Of a stretch of 32,915 nt of DNA, positions 4,083-30,229 are shown piece after piece (position 1 is the first letter of the stretch; the number at the start of each line of letters is the position of its first letter). The translations under genes and the position numbers were made by a program. Origin of the DNA: a virus; IMG/VR virus record IMGVR_UViG_3300021091_000242, positions 1 through 32,915 of that record. One strand, written 5' to 3'. The notes beneath the pieces were generated by a model. That model did not search any database, was not told the origin of the DNA, and was given only the letters and a program-made list of their open reading frames with translations.

Positions 4083-4357
4083 TGGGAAGACCAGTACATA
4101 GACTAGGGGACTTAAATATTGGCGGTGGAGCAGTCATGTTTGCAAAAGCAGTGTCTGTAATCTCTGCAGGTCTTCCAGTAGCAACTACAGGAGATCCAGT
4201 CTCTCCTCATGGTGAACCACCACATTCATCACCTGAGACGGGTCCAGGGAGTCCTACAGTGTTGGCACAGGGAGTTCCAGTAAATAGGACGGGCGACATT
4301 GATACATGTGGACATCCTAGAGCAATTGGCAATCCAACTGTACTGATTGGGCCTTGA
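4082..4357 (+). CDS. PAAR-repeat spike tip protein (91 aa)
   Basis: This small protein matches the PAAR family, which caps the membrane-piercing spike of contractile tails (the counterpart in T4 is gp5.4). Visible family features are the repeated G-D and P-V turns (HRLGD near residue 6, GLPVATTGDP near 30, GVPVNRTGD near 64) and the 'SPTVLAQG' and 'NPTVLIGP' strands. Candidate metal ligands are His6, His43 or His48, Cys76 and His78, consistent with the three His plus one Cys site known for the family. Its length is normal. The start codon overlaps the stop of the 1088-residue gene by one base, so the two products probably act in the same spike complex. The stop codon overlaps the -35 box of the promoter that follows. 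Confidence 0.92.
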   Translation: MGRPVHRLGDLNIGGGAVMFAKAVSVISAGLPVATTGDPVSPHGEPPHSSPETGPGSPTVLAQGVPVNRTGDIDTCGHPRAIGNPTVLIGP

Positions 4358-4382
4358 CAATCATCAAAATTTTTGTTATTAT
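4354..4382 (+). promoter_or_regulatory. Sigma70-like promoter for the 48-residue basic gene
   Basis: TTGACA at 4354-4359 is a perfect -35 box. TATTAT at 4377-4382 is a -10 box with one mismatch to TATAAT, and the spacer is exactly 17 bases. The -35 box overlaps the stop codon of the PAAR gene. Transcription would start near 4389, about 16 bases before the ATG at 4405. This differs from the phage late promoters elsewhere in the window, which have only an ATAAATA box, and suggests transcription by host-type sigma factor, possibly early in infection. Confidence 0.68.
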
Positions 4383-4404
4383 TTAATTTCATCGGTTTAA
4401 GACT

Positions 4405-4551
4405 ATGGCAAAAGTAGGAAGTTTTAACAAAACTAGTTACGTTCCTGGCAATCCAAAGAAAACTCGTCAAGGGCGTAGTCAAAATACCCAGCTGGGTGCT
4501 TCTTCACGCAATGGACGTAAAAAGCGCTATCGTGGCCAAGGAAAAGGTTGA
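4405..4551 (+). CDS. Very basic 48-residue protein, probably nucleic-acid binding
   Basis: The frame runs from ATG at 4405 to TGA at 4549-4551. The 48-residue product has 13 Lys or Arg and no Asp or Glu, no hydrophobic core to speak of, and a C-terminal cluster SSRNGRKKRYRGQGKG. This composition resembles short ribosomal or RNA/DNA-binding tails, so nucleic-acid or ribosome binding is inferred; no family is firmly recognised. I believe similar short basic proteins occur in other cyanomyoviruses, but could not check. It sits alone between a sigma70-like promoter and a strong terminator, which makes it an independent unit inside the late structural cluster. The leader is short with no good Shine-Dalgarno (bases before the ATG are GACT). 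Confidence 0.8.
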   Translation: MAKVGSFNKTSYVPGNPKKTRQGRSQNTQLGASSRNGRKKRYRGQGKG

Positions 4552-4558
4552 TAATTGT

Positions 4559-4580
4559 CCTCCGCAAGGAGGGTTTTTTT
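4559..4580 (+). terminator. Intrinsic terminator after the 48-residue basic gene
   Basis: A CCTCC / GGAGG stem (4559-4563 and 4568-4572) closes a GCAA tetraloop of the stable GNRA class, and a G and seven T residues follow (4574-4580). It starts seven bases after the stop codon. This is the only strong intrinsic terminator I found in the window. Confidence 0.85.
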
Positions 4581-4592
4581 ATGAGGAAATGT

Positions 4593-4601
4593 CACTAAAT
4601 A
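4593..4601 (+). promoter_or_regulatory. Weak late-promoter-like box before the 64-residue gene
   Basis: CACTAAATA just after the terminator keeps the TAAATA half of the T4 late promoter octamer TATAAATA, with two mismatches in its first part. It lies about 60 bases before the ATG at 4662, further than the other late boxes here. It would restart late transcription after the terminator, but the match is poor. Confidence 0.25.
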
Positions 4602-4630
4602 GGACTGTGGGAGATAGCAACCTCCAAAAA

Positions 4631-4650
4631 AGTTCTGATATTTCAGAATT
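4631..4650 (+). repeat. Inverted repeat (hairpin) just before a ribosome binding site
   Basis: TTCTGA and TCAGAA pair around a TATT loop, extendable by a G-T and an A-T pair to eight pairs. The hairpin ends immediately before AGGAG (4651-4655), the Shine-Dalgarno of the gene starting at 4662. It has no T-run after it, so it is not a terminator; it may stabilise the mRNA end or affect initiation. Confidence 0.45.
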
Positions 4651-4873: not shown

Positions 4874-5314
4874 ATGCTAGGATCTACAACCAACAAAAGA
4901 GCACTGCAATCTGAATTTCTTGGGAAAGTTTCCAGGTCTTTTAAGGATCTTAGCTTTAATTTTACGAAAAATCCTATCACAAATGATATTGTTGTACTAA
5001 AAAATGAAGAGGCGATCAAACAATCGGTAAAAAATCTAGTTTTGACTCAAATTAACGAAAGACCATTTAGACCTTTACTGGGTACAAATACTAATTCGTT
5101 TCTTTTTGAACTAGGTCCAGAAGTTGCCGCTAACTCTTTGATTGACGAAATTGAAAAAGTTTTAAATGAGAATGAACCAAGAATTCGATTGGAGAGAATT
5201 GACGTAGATTCTGTAGATGAATCTAATGAGTTTGAAGTTATTATAGATTATCTAATTGTAGGCCTTCCTCCAGAAACACAAACGTTATCCTTTATTCTCG
5301 TTAGAGAAAGTTAA
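4874..5314 (+). CDS. gp25: Baseplate wedge protein gp25
   Basis: A member of the GPW/gp25 family, the conserved wedge component that, with gp6, contacts the tail sheath in contractile tails. The family pattern is clear: a start region with SFKDLSFNFTKNP, then 'DIVVLKNEEAIKQSVKNLVL' leading to the conserved 'INERPFRPLLGT' turn, then 'LFELGPE' and a C-terminal alternating strand region ending in LSFILVRES. Length is 146 residues, near the usual 130-150. It is followed after five bases by gp6, the neighbour expected for a partner in the same wedge. Identification is confident. Confidence 0.94.
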   Translation: MLGSTTNKRALQSEFLGKVSRSFKDLSFNFTKNPITNDIVVLKNEEAIKQSVKNLVLTQINERPFRPLLGTNTNSFLFELGPEVAANSLIDEIEKVLNENEPRIRLERIDVDSVDESNEFEVIIDYLIVGLPPETQTLSFILVRES

Positions 5315-5319
5315 TCTAA

Positions 5320-7392
5320 ATGGAATTACCCGTAGTATCTGCTCTAGAGTTTGAGCAATTAAAGAGCTCAATTAAAACTTTTATAAAAACAAAGACAGAT
5401 TTCAAAGATTACGACTTTGAAGGATCTAACCTGTCAATGTTGGTCGATGTTTTAGCGTATAATACCTTATATACGTCATACAATGTCAGTATGGCCGCTA
5501 ATGAACTAAACCTTGATACTGCAGTATTCAGAGATAATGTTGTTTCGATTGCAAAAAGACTTGGATATAATCCAAATTCGTATACTTCTTCAAAAGTATC
5601 TGTAAATATTACCGTAAATAACACTCAAAATTTTGATAGCATTAGATTGGAACCAGGTCCAATCCTTGCAGCAAGTGCTGGCGGCCAAAATTTTACATTT
5701 ATACTTAGAGATAATTTAGAAATTAATGTAAAAGGGAAACAATCAGTTACCTTTCCAAACGTAGAGTTGTTAGAAGGATCAGATTTTTCTATCAGTTATA
5801 CAGTAGATACTTCAAACGAGCACCAAAGATTTTTTATTCCAAATAGTTTTGTAGACGCAGAATCTATTCGAGTCTTTGTTGTTTCTGATCCATCGACAAA
5901 TAAAGAGGAAGAATATAAGAAAAAGACTACTATTGTCGATGTTTCTGCAACTAGTAAGATTTTCTTTGTAGAAGAAGTGCAGGATCAGAAGTATGAAGTT
6001 ATTTTTGGTGATGACGTATTTGGTAGAAAACTAAGAAACGGCGAAATAATTAGAATTCAGTACGTTATTTCTTCAGGATCTCAATCAAATAACATTAGGA
6101 TATTTGATTTTGTCGGAACTGTTCAGGGAAGAACGAATAATATTGAAAGTGTCATTGGTACAAATAATGTACAATACACAATTAAATCAGAATTTTCTGA
6201 TGGTGGATCAGAATTTGAAGATATTCGATCAATTAAGTATGCTGCACCACGTTACTATGCATCTCAGGAAAGAACAGTAACAGTTTCAGATTATGAGTCG
6301 GTCATTAAGCAAATTTATCCAAATGCAGATTTAGTTAAAGTAGTTGGTGGAGAATCGTTAACTCCTCCAAGATTTGGTAAAGTTTTTATATCAATTAAAC
6401 CATTTGTTGGTGAAACTGTAAGTACCAGTGAAAAACAAAGAATTATCAAAGAGTTGAGTAAGTATAAAGTTGGATCTGTAGACGTAGAAATTCTAGATCC
6501 GTTTGATATCACAATTATTGCTAAACCAATTGTAATATTCAACGCTTCTAAGACTAGAAATACACAGGCTGATATAATTTCATTGATTAATGGAGTCTTT
6601 ATTAAGTATACCTCAGATATTAATTTTAATTCCTTTGGCGGAAAATATTCTGACTTAGAAGTTAGATGCTTAATTAAAGATGTAGATGAAGCAATTCAAT
6701 TCACAAAAGTACCAATTTACTTACAACAGAATATAACTCTGTATCAATCTGTCGAAAATTTTTATGAAATTAATTTTTATACAAAATTGAAGAAAGATGG
6801 TAATAATGAATATTATGTTCTATCCGATCCATTTTGTGTACAAGGAATTGCATCTCCAGTAGTTCTTGGTGCAAAAAGTGGTTGCGAAGTAGAGAGTCTG
6901 ATGTACTTGTATTATCTAAATGGTACACCAGTTAAGTCTGTTGGAAAAATTGATATGAATCTGGGTAAGATAACATTTACTCTAACTGCATGTCAAAATG
7001 CACCAATAAATATTACAGTTATACCAGAAATTACAGACATCTTATTTGGACCAAACATAGTTCCTTCATTAGTTTTACTACAACCAGAGATTGCTGATTC
7101 AATTGAAGATCTTGATACTAGATCTGATTTACTAAACGATGATCAATCCATCTTACCAGTTCAAGAAATTCTTTCGAATACTGCAGAAGGAGATCCAAAC
7201 GCCTTAGTTGATCCGACAGCAACTCCAAACTTGATATCTGCTCCAGGTGGTTCCATTGTTCCTCCATCATCCGTGACTATTATTCAACCTTCAGATGGGC
7301 CGGTTATTATTGATCCAGTTATCAGTGATCCAAATAACATTGGGACTATAGACGATTACACACCAGAACAAGATCCATATTCCTGCCCATGA
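5320..7392 (+). CDS. gp6: Baseplate wedge protein gp6 (baseplate J-like)
   Basis: Gp6 forms the ring of wedge dimers that holds the baseplate together around the hub. The N-terminal region (about residues 1-90) has the expected pattern: an FEQLKSSIKTFIKT helix, then DYDFEGSNLSMLVDVLAYNT, then 'MAANELNLDTAVFRDNVVSIAKRLGY'-type helices. Central residues (about 230-330) carry the FGDDVFGRKLRNGE turn and the YASQERTVTVSDYES segment typical of baseplate J/gp6 proteins. It is 690 residues long against about 660 in T4. The extra length lies mainly in an acidic, Pro-rich, probably unstructured tail (about 580-690) ending in DPYSCP. The stop overlaps the gp7-like ATG as ATGA. Identification is confident. 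Confidence 0.93.
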   Translation: MELPVVSALEFEQLKSSIKTFIKTKTDFKDYDFEGSNLSMLVDVLAYNTLYTSYNVSMAANELNLDTAVFRDNVVSIAKRLGYNPNSYTSSKVSVNITVNNTQNFDSIRLEPGPILAASAGGQNFTFILRDNLEINVKGKQSVTFPNVELLEGSDFSISYTVDTSNEHQRFFIPNSFVDAESIRVFVVSDPSTNKEEEYKKKTTIVDVSATSKIFFVEEVQDQKYEVIFGDDVFGRKLRNGEIIRIQYVISSGSQSNNIRIFDFVGTVQGRTNNIESVIGTNNVQYTIKSEFSDGGSEFEDIRSIKYAAPRYYASQERTVTVSDYESVIKQIYPNADLVKVVGGESLTPPRFGKVFISIKPFVGETVSTSEKQRIIKELSKYKVGSVDVEILDPFDITIIAKPIVIFNASKTRNTQADIISLINGVFIKYTSDINFNSFGGKYSDLEVRCLIKDVDEAIQFTKVPIYLQQNITLYQSVENFYEINFYTKLKKDGNNEYYVLSDPFCVQGIASPVVLGAKSGCEVESLMYLYYLNGTPVKSVGKIDMNLGKITFTLTACQNAPINITVIPEITDILFGPNIVPSLVLLQPEIADSIEDLDTRSDLLNDDQSILPVQEILSNTAEGDPNALVDPTATPNLISAPGGSIVPPSSVTIIQPSDGPVIIDPVISDPNNIGTIDDYTPEQDPYSCP

Positions 7393-27505: not shown

Positions 27506-30229
27506 ATGGCAACAATCTTAAAGATTAAAAGATCTAGTACCAACCCAACAGCAACACCTGCTGGTTTGGGACAAGGTGAACTCGCTTATGGTGAAGGTAC
27601 TAGTACATATACAGATTTCCAAGGTGCTAACGTCACCTCCTATGGTAAACTATTTGTAGGTAGGGGAACAGAAACCAATGGTATTGCAGCGAATATTGAT
27701 ATCATTGGTGGTAGATATTTTACCGACCTACTAGATCATGGTCATGGTACAATTACCGCAAACTCTGCAGCAATTGTAGACTCTTCTAAAAAGGTTAATG
27801 AGTGGAATGTTGATAACATTACCTTAGATGGTAATACAATTTCCACAACAAACTCAAATGGTAATTTGACTATTGATACAAATGGAACTGGAGATGTGGT
27901 GATCTCTGGTTCATCTACTGTTGGCAACAACCTATTTGTCATAAACGATGGTTCTACTGATAGATTTATCGTAGATTCATTTTCTGGTGCAGTAGATATT
28001 TCTTCACCAACTCTAAGTGCAGCTGATACTCTTCTCAACATTTCATCAACCTGGAACAATGCCGGTGCAACTTTCTACGGTATTGATCTTGACGTAACCA
28101 ATACTGCATCTGGAGCAAACTCAAGACTCCTTAACTTATCTGTTGGAGGATCTGATAAATTTAATGTAGATCTTTCTGGTAATGTTTACCTAACTGGAAA
28201 TATTTCATATGCAAACGCAGTAAACTTTAACATTCAAGATAATACTGCAGATGCATTTGTTATCCAAGAAGGTGCAAATAAGTACATTGATATTGACACA
28301 ACTGATAATTCAGAACTAGTAACTATTGGTAATAATATTGCATCTGTAAACATTGTTATTGAAGATAATAAATCAGATGCTTTTATCATCAAAGAAGGAA
28401 CCAATAAGTATGTAGATATTGATACTAATAATGGATCTGAACTACTCACCATTAGCACTGCGAACGTAGACATCGATAATGATCTCAATATTGATGGTGG
28501 TGATTTAACTACCAACCAAACTACATTTAATTTACTCAACACAAACGCTACAACTGTTAACTTTGCTGGTGCGGCAACTACTGTAGAGATTGGTGCTGCT
28601 ACTGGTACTACTAACGTTAATAATAATCTTGATGTTGACGGAGACGTTAATATTGACGGCGGAGATTTAACGGTTTCTACTAGCACATTTAACCTTGCAA
28701 ACACAAACGCTACTACAGTAAACTTTGCTGGTGCTGGTACTACTATAGAAATTGGTGCTGCTACTGGTACTACTAACGTTAATAACAACTTAGTAGTAGA
28801 TCTAGACTTACAAGTAAAGGGTGGTGATATCACCACTGATCAAACTTCATTTAATCTTCTAAATGGTACTGCTACCACAATTAATTTTGGTGGGGCAGCA
28901 ACCACTATCGAAATTGGTGCTGCTACTGGTACTACTAACGTTAATAATAATCTTGATGTTGACGGAGATGTTAATATCGATGGTGGCGATCTTACCGTTT
29001 CAACTAGTTCATTCAATCTTGTTAATACCAATGCAACCACAGTAAACTTTGCTGGGGCAGCAACCACTATTGAGATCGGTGCGGCGACTGGAACCACTAA
29101 CGTCAATAACAACCTTGATGTAGATGGTGATGTTAACATTGATGGGGGTGACTTAACCGTTTCCACATCTACATTCAACCTGGTAAACACAAACGCTACT
29201 ACAGTAAACTTTGCTGGTGCAGCAACTACTATAGAAATTGGTGCTGCTACTGGTACTACAAATGTAAACAATAACTTGGATGTGGATGGTGATGTTAACA
29301 TTGATGGTGGGGATCTTACTGCATCTACCACAACATTTAACCTCATCAATACAACGTCTACTACAGTAAACTTTGCTGGTGCAGCGCAAAATCTAAACAT
29401 CGGTAATGCATCGACAGAAGTTGATTTCGGTGATTTGAGAATTGTTGGTTCAACAATCTATAGTGATAATGCTGGTGCTCAGACCATTACTATTGACCCA
29501 TATCCAGCAGGTGGTGATCAGGGTGGTAACGTAGTTGTTCGTGGTAACTTACAAGTTTCTGGTACTACAACTACAGTTAACTCAACTGTAATGACAGTAA
29601 ATGATCCAGTATTTACTCTTGGTGATAGTATTTCAGAGAAGACTGTAGTATCTGCTGCTTCGAGTGGACAATCTAATGTTGTTCTTGATAGTGTAGACGG
29701 ACTAAATGTTGGTGATATTGTATCTGGTAATGCTGCAATTCCCAATGGAACTACAATTTCATCCATCAACACGGGAACTAAGACAATTACTCTTAGTGCA
29801 AACCTTACTGCTGGTATTGCAGCAAGTACTAATACTTCTCCAAAGATTCTAACCTTTACTCAAGGTGCTGACGACAACAAAGATCGTGGTATTGAGTTTA
29901 AGTATTTTAATGGATCACTAAAGACTGGATTCTTTGGTTATGATGAGTCTGGTATTGCGGAAGATGTAACTACTTACTACTTCACATATATCCCAGACGC
30001 AACCAATACTTCACAAGTATTTACTGGAACTGTTGGTAGTGCATACTTCAATACCACCAAACTAGAAATTGGTATCAACAAAGGTATTCCATTCTTTGAT
30101 CAATATAAGAGACTCACCACAACTGCAGCTGCTGGAACTTCGGATGCAACAACTTCATATCAAATTTTGACTGTTAATGCATCTGGTGTTCCACTTTGGA
30201 CAACTACAATTGACGGTGGCACTTACTGA
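27506..30229 (+). CDS. Fibre-like virion protein with 54-residue repeats (907 aa)
   Basis: The N-terminus (MATILKIKRSSTNPTATPAG, then LGQGELAYGE) is the start pattern of many cyanophage tail fibre and virion proteins. Residues about 240-320 hold two copies of a 36-residue unit (DAFVIQEGANKYIDID and DAFIIKEGTNKYVDID). Residues 331-600 hold five near-identical 54-residue repeats, with a sixth diverged copy to about 648. Residues about 724-771 carry an 'sVDGLNVGDIVSG' module also present in the 1088-residue protein. A C-terminal domain with DDNKDRGIEFKYFNGSLK and GFFGYDESG follows (from about 789). The protein probably forms a trimeric beta fibre. Its receptor is unknown and no chaperone or peptidase motif was recognised. 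Confidence 0.85.
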   Translation: MATILKIKRSSTNPTATPAGLGQGELAYGEGTSTYTDFQGANVTSYGKLFVGRGTETNGIAANIDIIGGRYFTDLLDHGHGTITANSAAIVDSSKKVNEWNVDNITLDGNTISTTNSNGNLTIDTNGTGDVVISGSSTVGNNLFVINDGSTDRFIVDSFSGAVDISSPTLSAADTLLNISSTWNNAGATFYGIDLDVTNTASGANSRLLNLSVGGSDKFNVDLSGNVYLTGNISYANAVNFNIQDNTADAFVIQEGANKYIDIDTTDNSELVTIGNNIASVNIVIEDNKSDAFIIKEGTNKYVDIDTNNGSELLTISTANVDIDNDLNIDGGDLTTNQTTFNLLNTNATTVNFAGAATTVEIGAATGTTNVNNNLDVDGDVNIDGGDLTVSTSTFNLANTNATTVNFAGAGTTIEIGAATGTTNVNNNLVVDLDLQVKGGDITTDQTSFNLLNGTATTINFGGAATTIEIGAATGTTNVNNNLDVDGDVNIDGGDLTVSTSSFNLVNTNATTVNFAGAATTIEIGAATGTTNVNNNLDVDGDVNIDGGDLTVSTSTFNLVNTNATTVNFAGAATTIEIGAATGTTNVNNNLDVDGDVNIDGGDLTASTTTFNLINTTSTTVNFAGAAQNLNIGNASTEVDFGDLRIVGSTIYSDNAGAQTITIDPYPAGGDQGGNVVVRGNLQVSGTTTTVNSTVMTVNDPVFTLGDSISEKTVVSAASSGQSNVVLDSVDGLNVGDIVSGNAAIPNGTTISSINTGTKTITLSANLTAGIAASTNTSPKILTFTQGADDNKDRGIEFKYFNGSLKTGFFGYDESGIAEDVTTYYFTYIPDATNTSQVFTGTVGSAYFNTTKLEIGINKGIPFFDQYKRLTTTAAAGTSDATTSYQILTVNASGVPLWTTTIDGGTY
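28225..28460 (+). repeat. Two-copy 36-residue repeat in the fibre-like protein
   Basis: Coding repeat. The first unit contains NIQDNTADAFVIQEGANKYI and the second VIEDNKSDAFIIKEGTNKYV, each followed by a D-I-D-T and SEL[VL]TI segment. It precedes the 54-residue repeats directly. Boundaries are approximate. Confidence 0.65.
28496..29449 (+). repeat. Five full and one diverged 162-base tandem repeats in the fibre-like gene
   Basis: Units start at 28496, 28658, 28820, 28982 and 29144, each exactly 162 bases (54 residues), and a diverged sixth starts at 29306. Each begins GGDLT or GGDIT and contains TVNFAGAATT or a variant, and EIGAATGTTNVNNNL. Copies are nearly identical in protein but differ widely in synonymous positions. 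Confidence 0.9.

Follow-up and report, generated by a model that had tools for sequence, protein, structure and literature searches.

phrog_516, a small basic cyanophage protein encoded in a putative early-class transcription unit directly ahead of the gp25 baseplate genes

The genes alt, mod, motA and asiA are missing from cyanomyoviruses, whose early transcription is thought to rely on the unmodified host polymerase, with NATAAATA as the late box (PMC2984593). Because the known take-over proteins of T4 are lacking, the take-over of host expression by T4-like cyanophages is an open question (PMC2984593). The closest described systems are the T4-GC394 genes of S-PM2 (S-PM2p076), P-SSM4 (PSSM4_075) and Syn33 (Syn33_089), which belong to the family phrog_516 and have the same place 5' of gp25 as the gene described here, with neighbours that in S-PM2 and P-SSM4 differ from those in the present DNA. 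No function is recorded for phrog_516 in PHROGs or in cyanomyovirus entries, no mention of T4-GC394, S-PM2p076 or PSSM4_075 was found in the literature searched, and the promoter and terminator arrangement around the gene is absent from the annotations and literature searched. The T4-type early take-over proteins Alc, AsiA and Mod are likewise small, phage-specific and under host-sigma70 promoters; however, phrog_516 has no sequence relation to any Pfam family.

The window analysed here is a virus record of 32,915 bases, and the part of the genome covered is that stretch. Directly 5' of its gp25-gp6 module (gp25 at 4874), in the layout of T4-like cyanophages, it has a 48-aa ORF with the following elements:

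4354..4382, + strand: sigma70-type promoter, with TTGACA at 4354-4359, a 17-nt spacer and TGt-TATTAT at 4374-4382 (extended -10 TG at 4374-4375, TATTAT at 4377-4382)
about 4389, + strand: predicted transcription start of the unit, from the promoter position
4405..4551, + strand: ORF of the 48-aa basic protein, phrog_516 / T4-GC394, with its ATG at 4405
4558..4580, + strand: Rho-independent terminator, TCCTCC-GCAA-GGAGGG and then T7
4594..4601, + strand: late box ACTAAATA, which starts the next unit (64-aa ORF, gp25, gp6)

The promoter, the 48-residue ORF and the GCAA-loop terminator with seven T had all been described by a sequence-only reading of this DNA, and all are there; the TG of the extended -10 comes in addition to what that reading listed. 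The terminator hairpin at 4558-4580 (GTCCTCC-GCAA-GGAGGGT followed by T7, folding energy -9.4 kcal/mol) has the GC-rich stem, short loop and T-run of Rho-independent terminators. The promoter, with its -35 and -10 hexamers, a spacer within 16-18 nt and a position kept in relatives, has the sequence features of a host-sigma70 promoter and is the sole 11/12 hexamer match within the first 10 kb of the window. In shuffles of the 33-kb window, counting both strands, a perfect -35 with at least 5/6 of the -10 occurs 0.92 times, and 0.105 times if the TG is also required; taken alone, the promoter is weak evidence, since about one such site is expected by chance in 33 kb, and it is credible because it stands in the 47 nt that separate PAAR from the ATG and, still more, because it recurs in relatives. 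The late box expected of a T4-type late unit was sought directly upstream as NATAAATA or CTAAATA, and the 47 nt from PAAR to the 48-aa ORF contain none. The late boxes at 4594, 18664, 20249, 26928 and 30228 are each placed ahead of the next ORF, and two more, at 7005 and 32266, lie inside genes. The earlier statement that all else with a recognisable promoter uses the late box holds in essence. For the small ORFs at 54-791, 5' of the baseplate genes, no late box and no strong sigma70 site is present.

The protein search that had been suggested for the 48-residue product placed it in the existing family phrog_516 (E 3.7e-18, with residues 6-47 aligned to profile positions 7-48, both of 48, and so covering the conserved C-terminal half), whose profile matches all 57 aligned relatives. 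By tblastn the gene is present in 450 phage records (358 Synechococcus, 63 Cyanophage, 24 Prochlorococcus and 5 Marine), and since these counts come close to those of gp25 (about 458 cyanophage records, with 373, 61 and 24 in the Synechococcus, Cyanophage and Prochlorococcus groups), it is nearly universal among cyanomyoviruses. None was found outside cyanomyovirus records in the collections searched, and no copy was seen in the inspected region of S-SSM7. The 14 control genomes, Synechococcus elongatus among them, had no match, and a cellular origin of the gene was rejected, as the five genome-collection matches look like phage DNA; in the bacterial-genome matches L084 and L086, gp25/gp6 adjoin the phrog_516 gene. 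L086 (NZ_RMVE01000006) and L172 are both in the assembly of Nonlabens xiamenensis 1Q3, whose RefSeq genome includes a 188-kb contig with cyanophage-type gp25, gp6 and phrog_516 and which also has psbA; the contig is apparently cyanophage DNA filed under a flavobacterium.

The window protein has 13 Lys/Arg (7 K and 6 R) and no Asp/Glu, as previously noted, for a charge of +13 over 48 residues, although the description 'all-basic' was wrong, K/R being 27% of the residues. All 57 members carry a net charge between +11 and +14, and M1, P17, K18, Q22, G23, N36, K40, Y42, G44, Q45 and G46 are invariant across these 57 divergent sequences. The pN/pS of 0.04-0.10 (unsaturated pairs) indicates strong purifying selection on a conserved ORF with synonymous-site bias, as had been anticipated, and rules out a leader or small-RNA-only transcript. 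AlphaFold returned a pLDDT of 61 and a pTM of 0.13 with secondary structure absent, from the weak input of 48 residues and a 57-sequence alignment, and the protein is predicted to be unstructured. Searches of Pfam, NCBIfam and PDB gave no ribosomal, DNA-binding, transcription or enzyme homology, with matches at noise level only (glutamine synthetase, E 0.015 in 2/57 members; StpA, about 0.1 in 3/57). The ribosomal proteins bTHX and bL27 resemble phrog_516 in being short, very basic and extended, with a K-T-R-x-G-type motif; however, the 57-member profile found nothing at E<=10 among all PDB chains, ribosomal proteins included.

Two gene contexts dominate among the relatives. In context A, as in the window and S-PM2, the phrog_516 gene is directly 3' of PAAR, and in context B it is the last gene of an operon headed by a T4-GC102-like gene of about 250 aa, usually with a small acidic ORF between the two. 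Strong sigma70 sites, defined as TG plus at least 5/6 of the -10, or as at least 11/12 of the hexamers with at least 5/6 of the -10, were searched 15-50 nt 5' of the ATG. Such a site is present in 29 of the 54 distinct upstream sequences of context A (dinucleotide shuffles: mean 1.05, maximum 4), including 15 of the 19 loci with a PAAR gap of at least 20 nt. The -10 is within the PAAR gap in 14 of the 29 promoter-bearing loci and overlaps or is inside PAAR codons in the other 15, mostly as TTGACA-17-TACAAT within the conserved LTGP..YPTI peptide, so PAAR coding constraint may contribute to the promoter counts, which are also not independent events because the sequences share descent. The distance from the end of the -10 to the ATG is 22 nt in the window and similar in most relatives (20-28 nt if the -10 is in the PAAR gap), and the S-PM2 gene has TGCTATAAT located 25 nt upstream. 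By the same sigma70 criterion, sites were found for 0/54 gp25, 2/55 gp6 and 1/53 PAAR genes. A late box is near the phrog_516 gene in 4/54 context-A loci, and at most 100 nt 5' of gp25 in 43/54. About half of the context-A loci are without a strong site, including S-RIM8 and Syn33 (gap of 2-3 nt), so that the gene may be transcribed there together with the late PAAR gene.

In context B, no sigma70 site was found 15-50 nt 5' of the phrog_516 gene itself (0/77), but of 67 distinct loci 65 have a near-consensus sigma70 promoter in front of the head gene of the operon, at most loci 22-25 nt from the head-gene ATG and usually with a perfect TTGACA; the promoters of the two contexts are separate and stand ahead of different genes. 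From these sequence comparisons, the recurrence of a host-type promoter ahead of the phrog_516 gene is the new result, the family itself already existing. The T4-GC102-like gene, for example at 6954-7712 in L174, has homologs in 92 loci and no Pfam match.

A terminator hairpin with a T-run is found at most 80 nt 3' of the gene in 13/55 loci of context A and 34/72 of context B (47/127 together), with stems unrelated in sequence among relatives, and L124 and L170 run from the stop codon through the terminator and TATAAATA to gp25. The promoter, the ORF and the terminator, whose conservation in related phages the sequence-only reading had proposed to check, recur at the values given above. Within 2.6 kb downstream of the phrog_516 gene there is a late box in 140/143 loci. 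In P-SSM4 the gene comes after T4-GC393, which is one of the small genes in the block preceding gp25; the Syn33 gene is separated from T4-GC393 by the wedge and PAAR genes, and the window likewise has a large wedge-type ORF and PAAR placed 5' of the gene. The phrog_516 gene would then be where the upstream block of small genes ends, split off by the late structural pair. From the sigma70 sites in contexts A and B, the rare late boxes and the unrelated, recurrent terminators, it is probably an early-class unit closing the early block just ahead of the late baseplate block, and comparative genomics gives good support to the earlier suggestion that the protein would be produced early or without depending on the late programme.

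The explanation preferred here, and judged reasonably probable, is that 4354-4580 is a self-contained host-sigma70 (early-class) unit of promoter, one gene and terminator, with a product that folds on RNA or the ribosome and acts in host take-over. Transcription of the infecting genome by host RNA polymerase would begin near 4389 and end at the terminator, giving an mRNA of about 190 nt, and the late baseplate unit would start separately at its own late box (phage sigma gp55). The ancestral place of the gene would be the small-gene block before gp25, as in P-SSM4 after T4-GC393; here and in Syn33 the late wedge and PAAR pair would have come between block and gene, with the sigma70 promoter kept or regained. 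The product is probably an unstructured protein that folds on its target, the invariant Q, G, N and Y giving specific contacts, and would help to redirect the translation or transcription of the host shortly after infection. A product that is small, basic, unstructured and strongly conserved, and whose gene has a host-type promoter, is in keeping with an early factor binding RNA, the ribosome or RNA polymerase; binding is suggested by the charge, the invariant residues and the predicted disorder, and RNA or the ribosome is the best guess for the partner, a guess from composition because the searches gave no homology to ribosomal, DNA-binding or transcription proteins. A wider proposal, put forward tentatively, is that phrog_516 is a near-universal, cyanomyovirus-specific early take-over factor (acting on the ribosome, rRNA or RNA polymerase) in place of the AsiA/Alc/Mod-type functions missing from these phages, and that the unit is a conserved early/late border. 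With its near-universal presence, strong selection and host-type promoter in two contexts, phrog_516 is a compact candidate that is directly testable in S-PM2 or another cultured phage.

Downstream of the terminator, at window 4609-4636, there is an RNA-like element of the conserved form NGRG-AUAGYAAC-CYCN-(6 nt)-GUUCU, placed 22-29 nt 5' of the ATG of the small ORF preceding gp25, with copies in L001, L002, L007, L010-L017, L019-L049 and others. It can form an H-type pseudoknot in which stem 1 is 97% paired (46 distinct copies) and stem 2 is invariant; stem 1 has compensatory changes at two of its four pairs (28 cells vs 9.7 in shuffles, 0/500). No Rfam family matches the element, and no description was found in the literature searched. 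In seven copies 3' of the phrog_516 gene (L012, L023, L027, L039, L048, L049 and L077), the 3' arm of the stem, CCTCTCTAAA, can alternatively pair with TTTAGAGAGG, which is followed by a T-run just ahead of the ATG; with this alternative pairing the leader resembles an attenuator with two exclusive folds.

Other explanations of the unit have to be weighed. A nucleoid-type protein, a polycation that would coat the DNA of host or phage early or reorganise it, agrees with the +13 charge in 48 residues, the absence of acidic residues and the predicted disorder, but the invariant Q, G, N and Y exceed the needs of pure charge neutralisation and therefore favour a defined partner, and the only nucleoid-protein match is that of StpA at noise level; this explanation is considered unlikely. 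Somewhat less likely still is a late virion or baseplate-assembly protein, co-transcribed with PAAR and acting as a basic peptide in the spike or baseplate or on virion DNA, with the sigma70 site incidental. The gene is always near gp25 (25-2477 nt, with one outlier) and often directly 3' of PAAR with a gap of 0-6 nt, as such a protein would have it; however, host-type promoters recur (29/54, and 65/67 at the operon head) against late boxes in 4/54, terminators split the gene from gp25, and the upstream neighbour is non-structural in many genomes.

The promoter could also be a chance match in AT-rich DNA, with the gene read through from upstream, and the shuffle rate of 0.92 per 33 kb and the relatives that have no site speak for this; yet the site is in a 47-nt gap and has the TG, and divergent relatives repeat it at the same distance far more often than shuffles do, which makes chance improbable. 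Least probable of all is an RNA-binding regulator, an early protein whose binding to the leader pseudoknot at 4609-4636 would delay the translation of the late baseplate operon. The element adjoins the gene in both contexts, mostly with the SRNG subtype of the protein, and its structure is backed by covariation, but many members of the other subtype, and some SRNG members, are without the element nearby, and shared ancestry explains the association of element and subtype.

Two further ORFs of the window were observed. The 59-aa ORF at 612-791 (phrog_661) has a weak match of MazE/AbrB antitoxin type, which at E 2e-4 falls short of the Pfam cut-off; in Syn33 a gene of the AbrB/MazE family (T4-GC390) stands ahead of the wedge gene. 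The 907-aa ORF at 27506-30229 contains several near-identical internal repeats of the form DGDVNIDGGDLTVSTSTFNLxNTNATTVNFAGAATTIEIGAATGTTNVNNNL.
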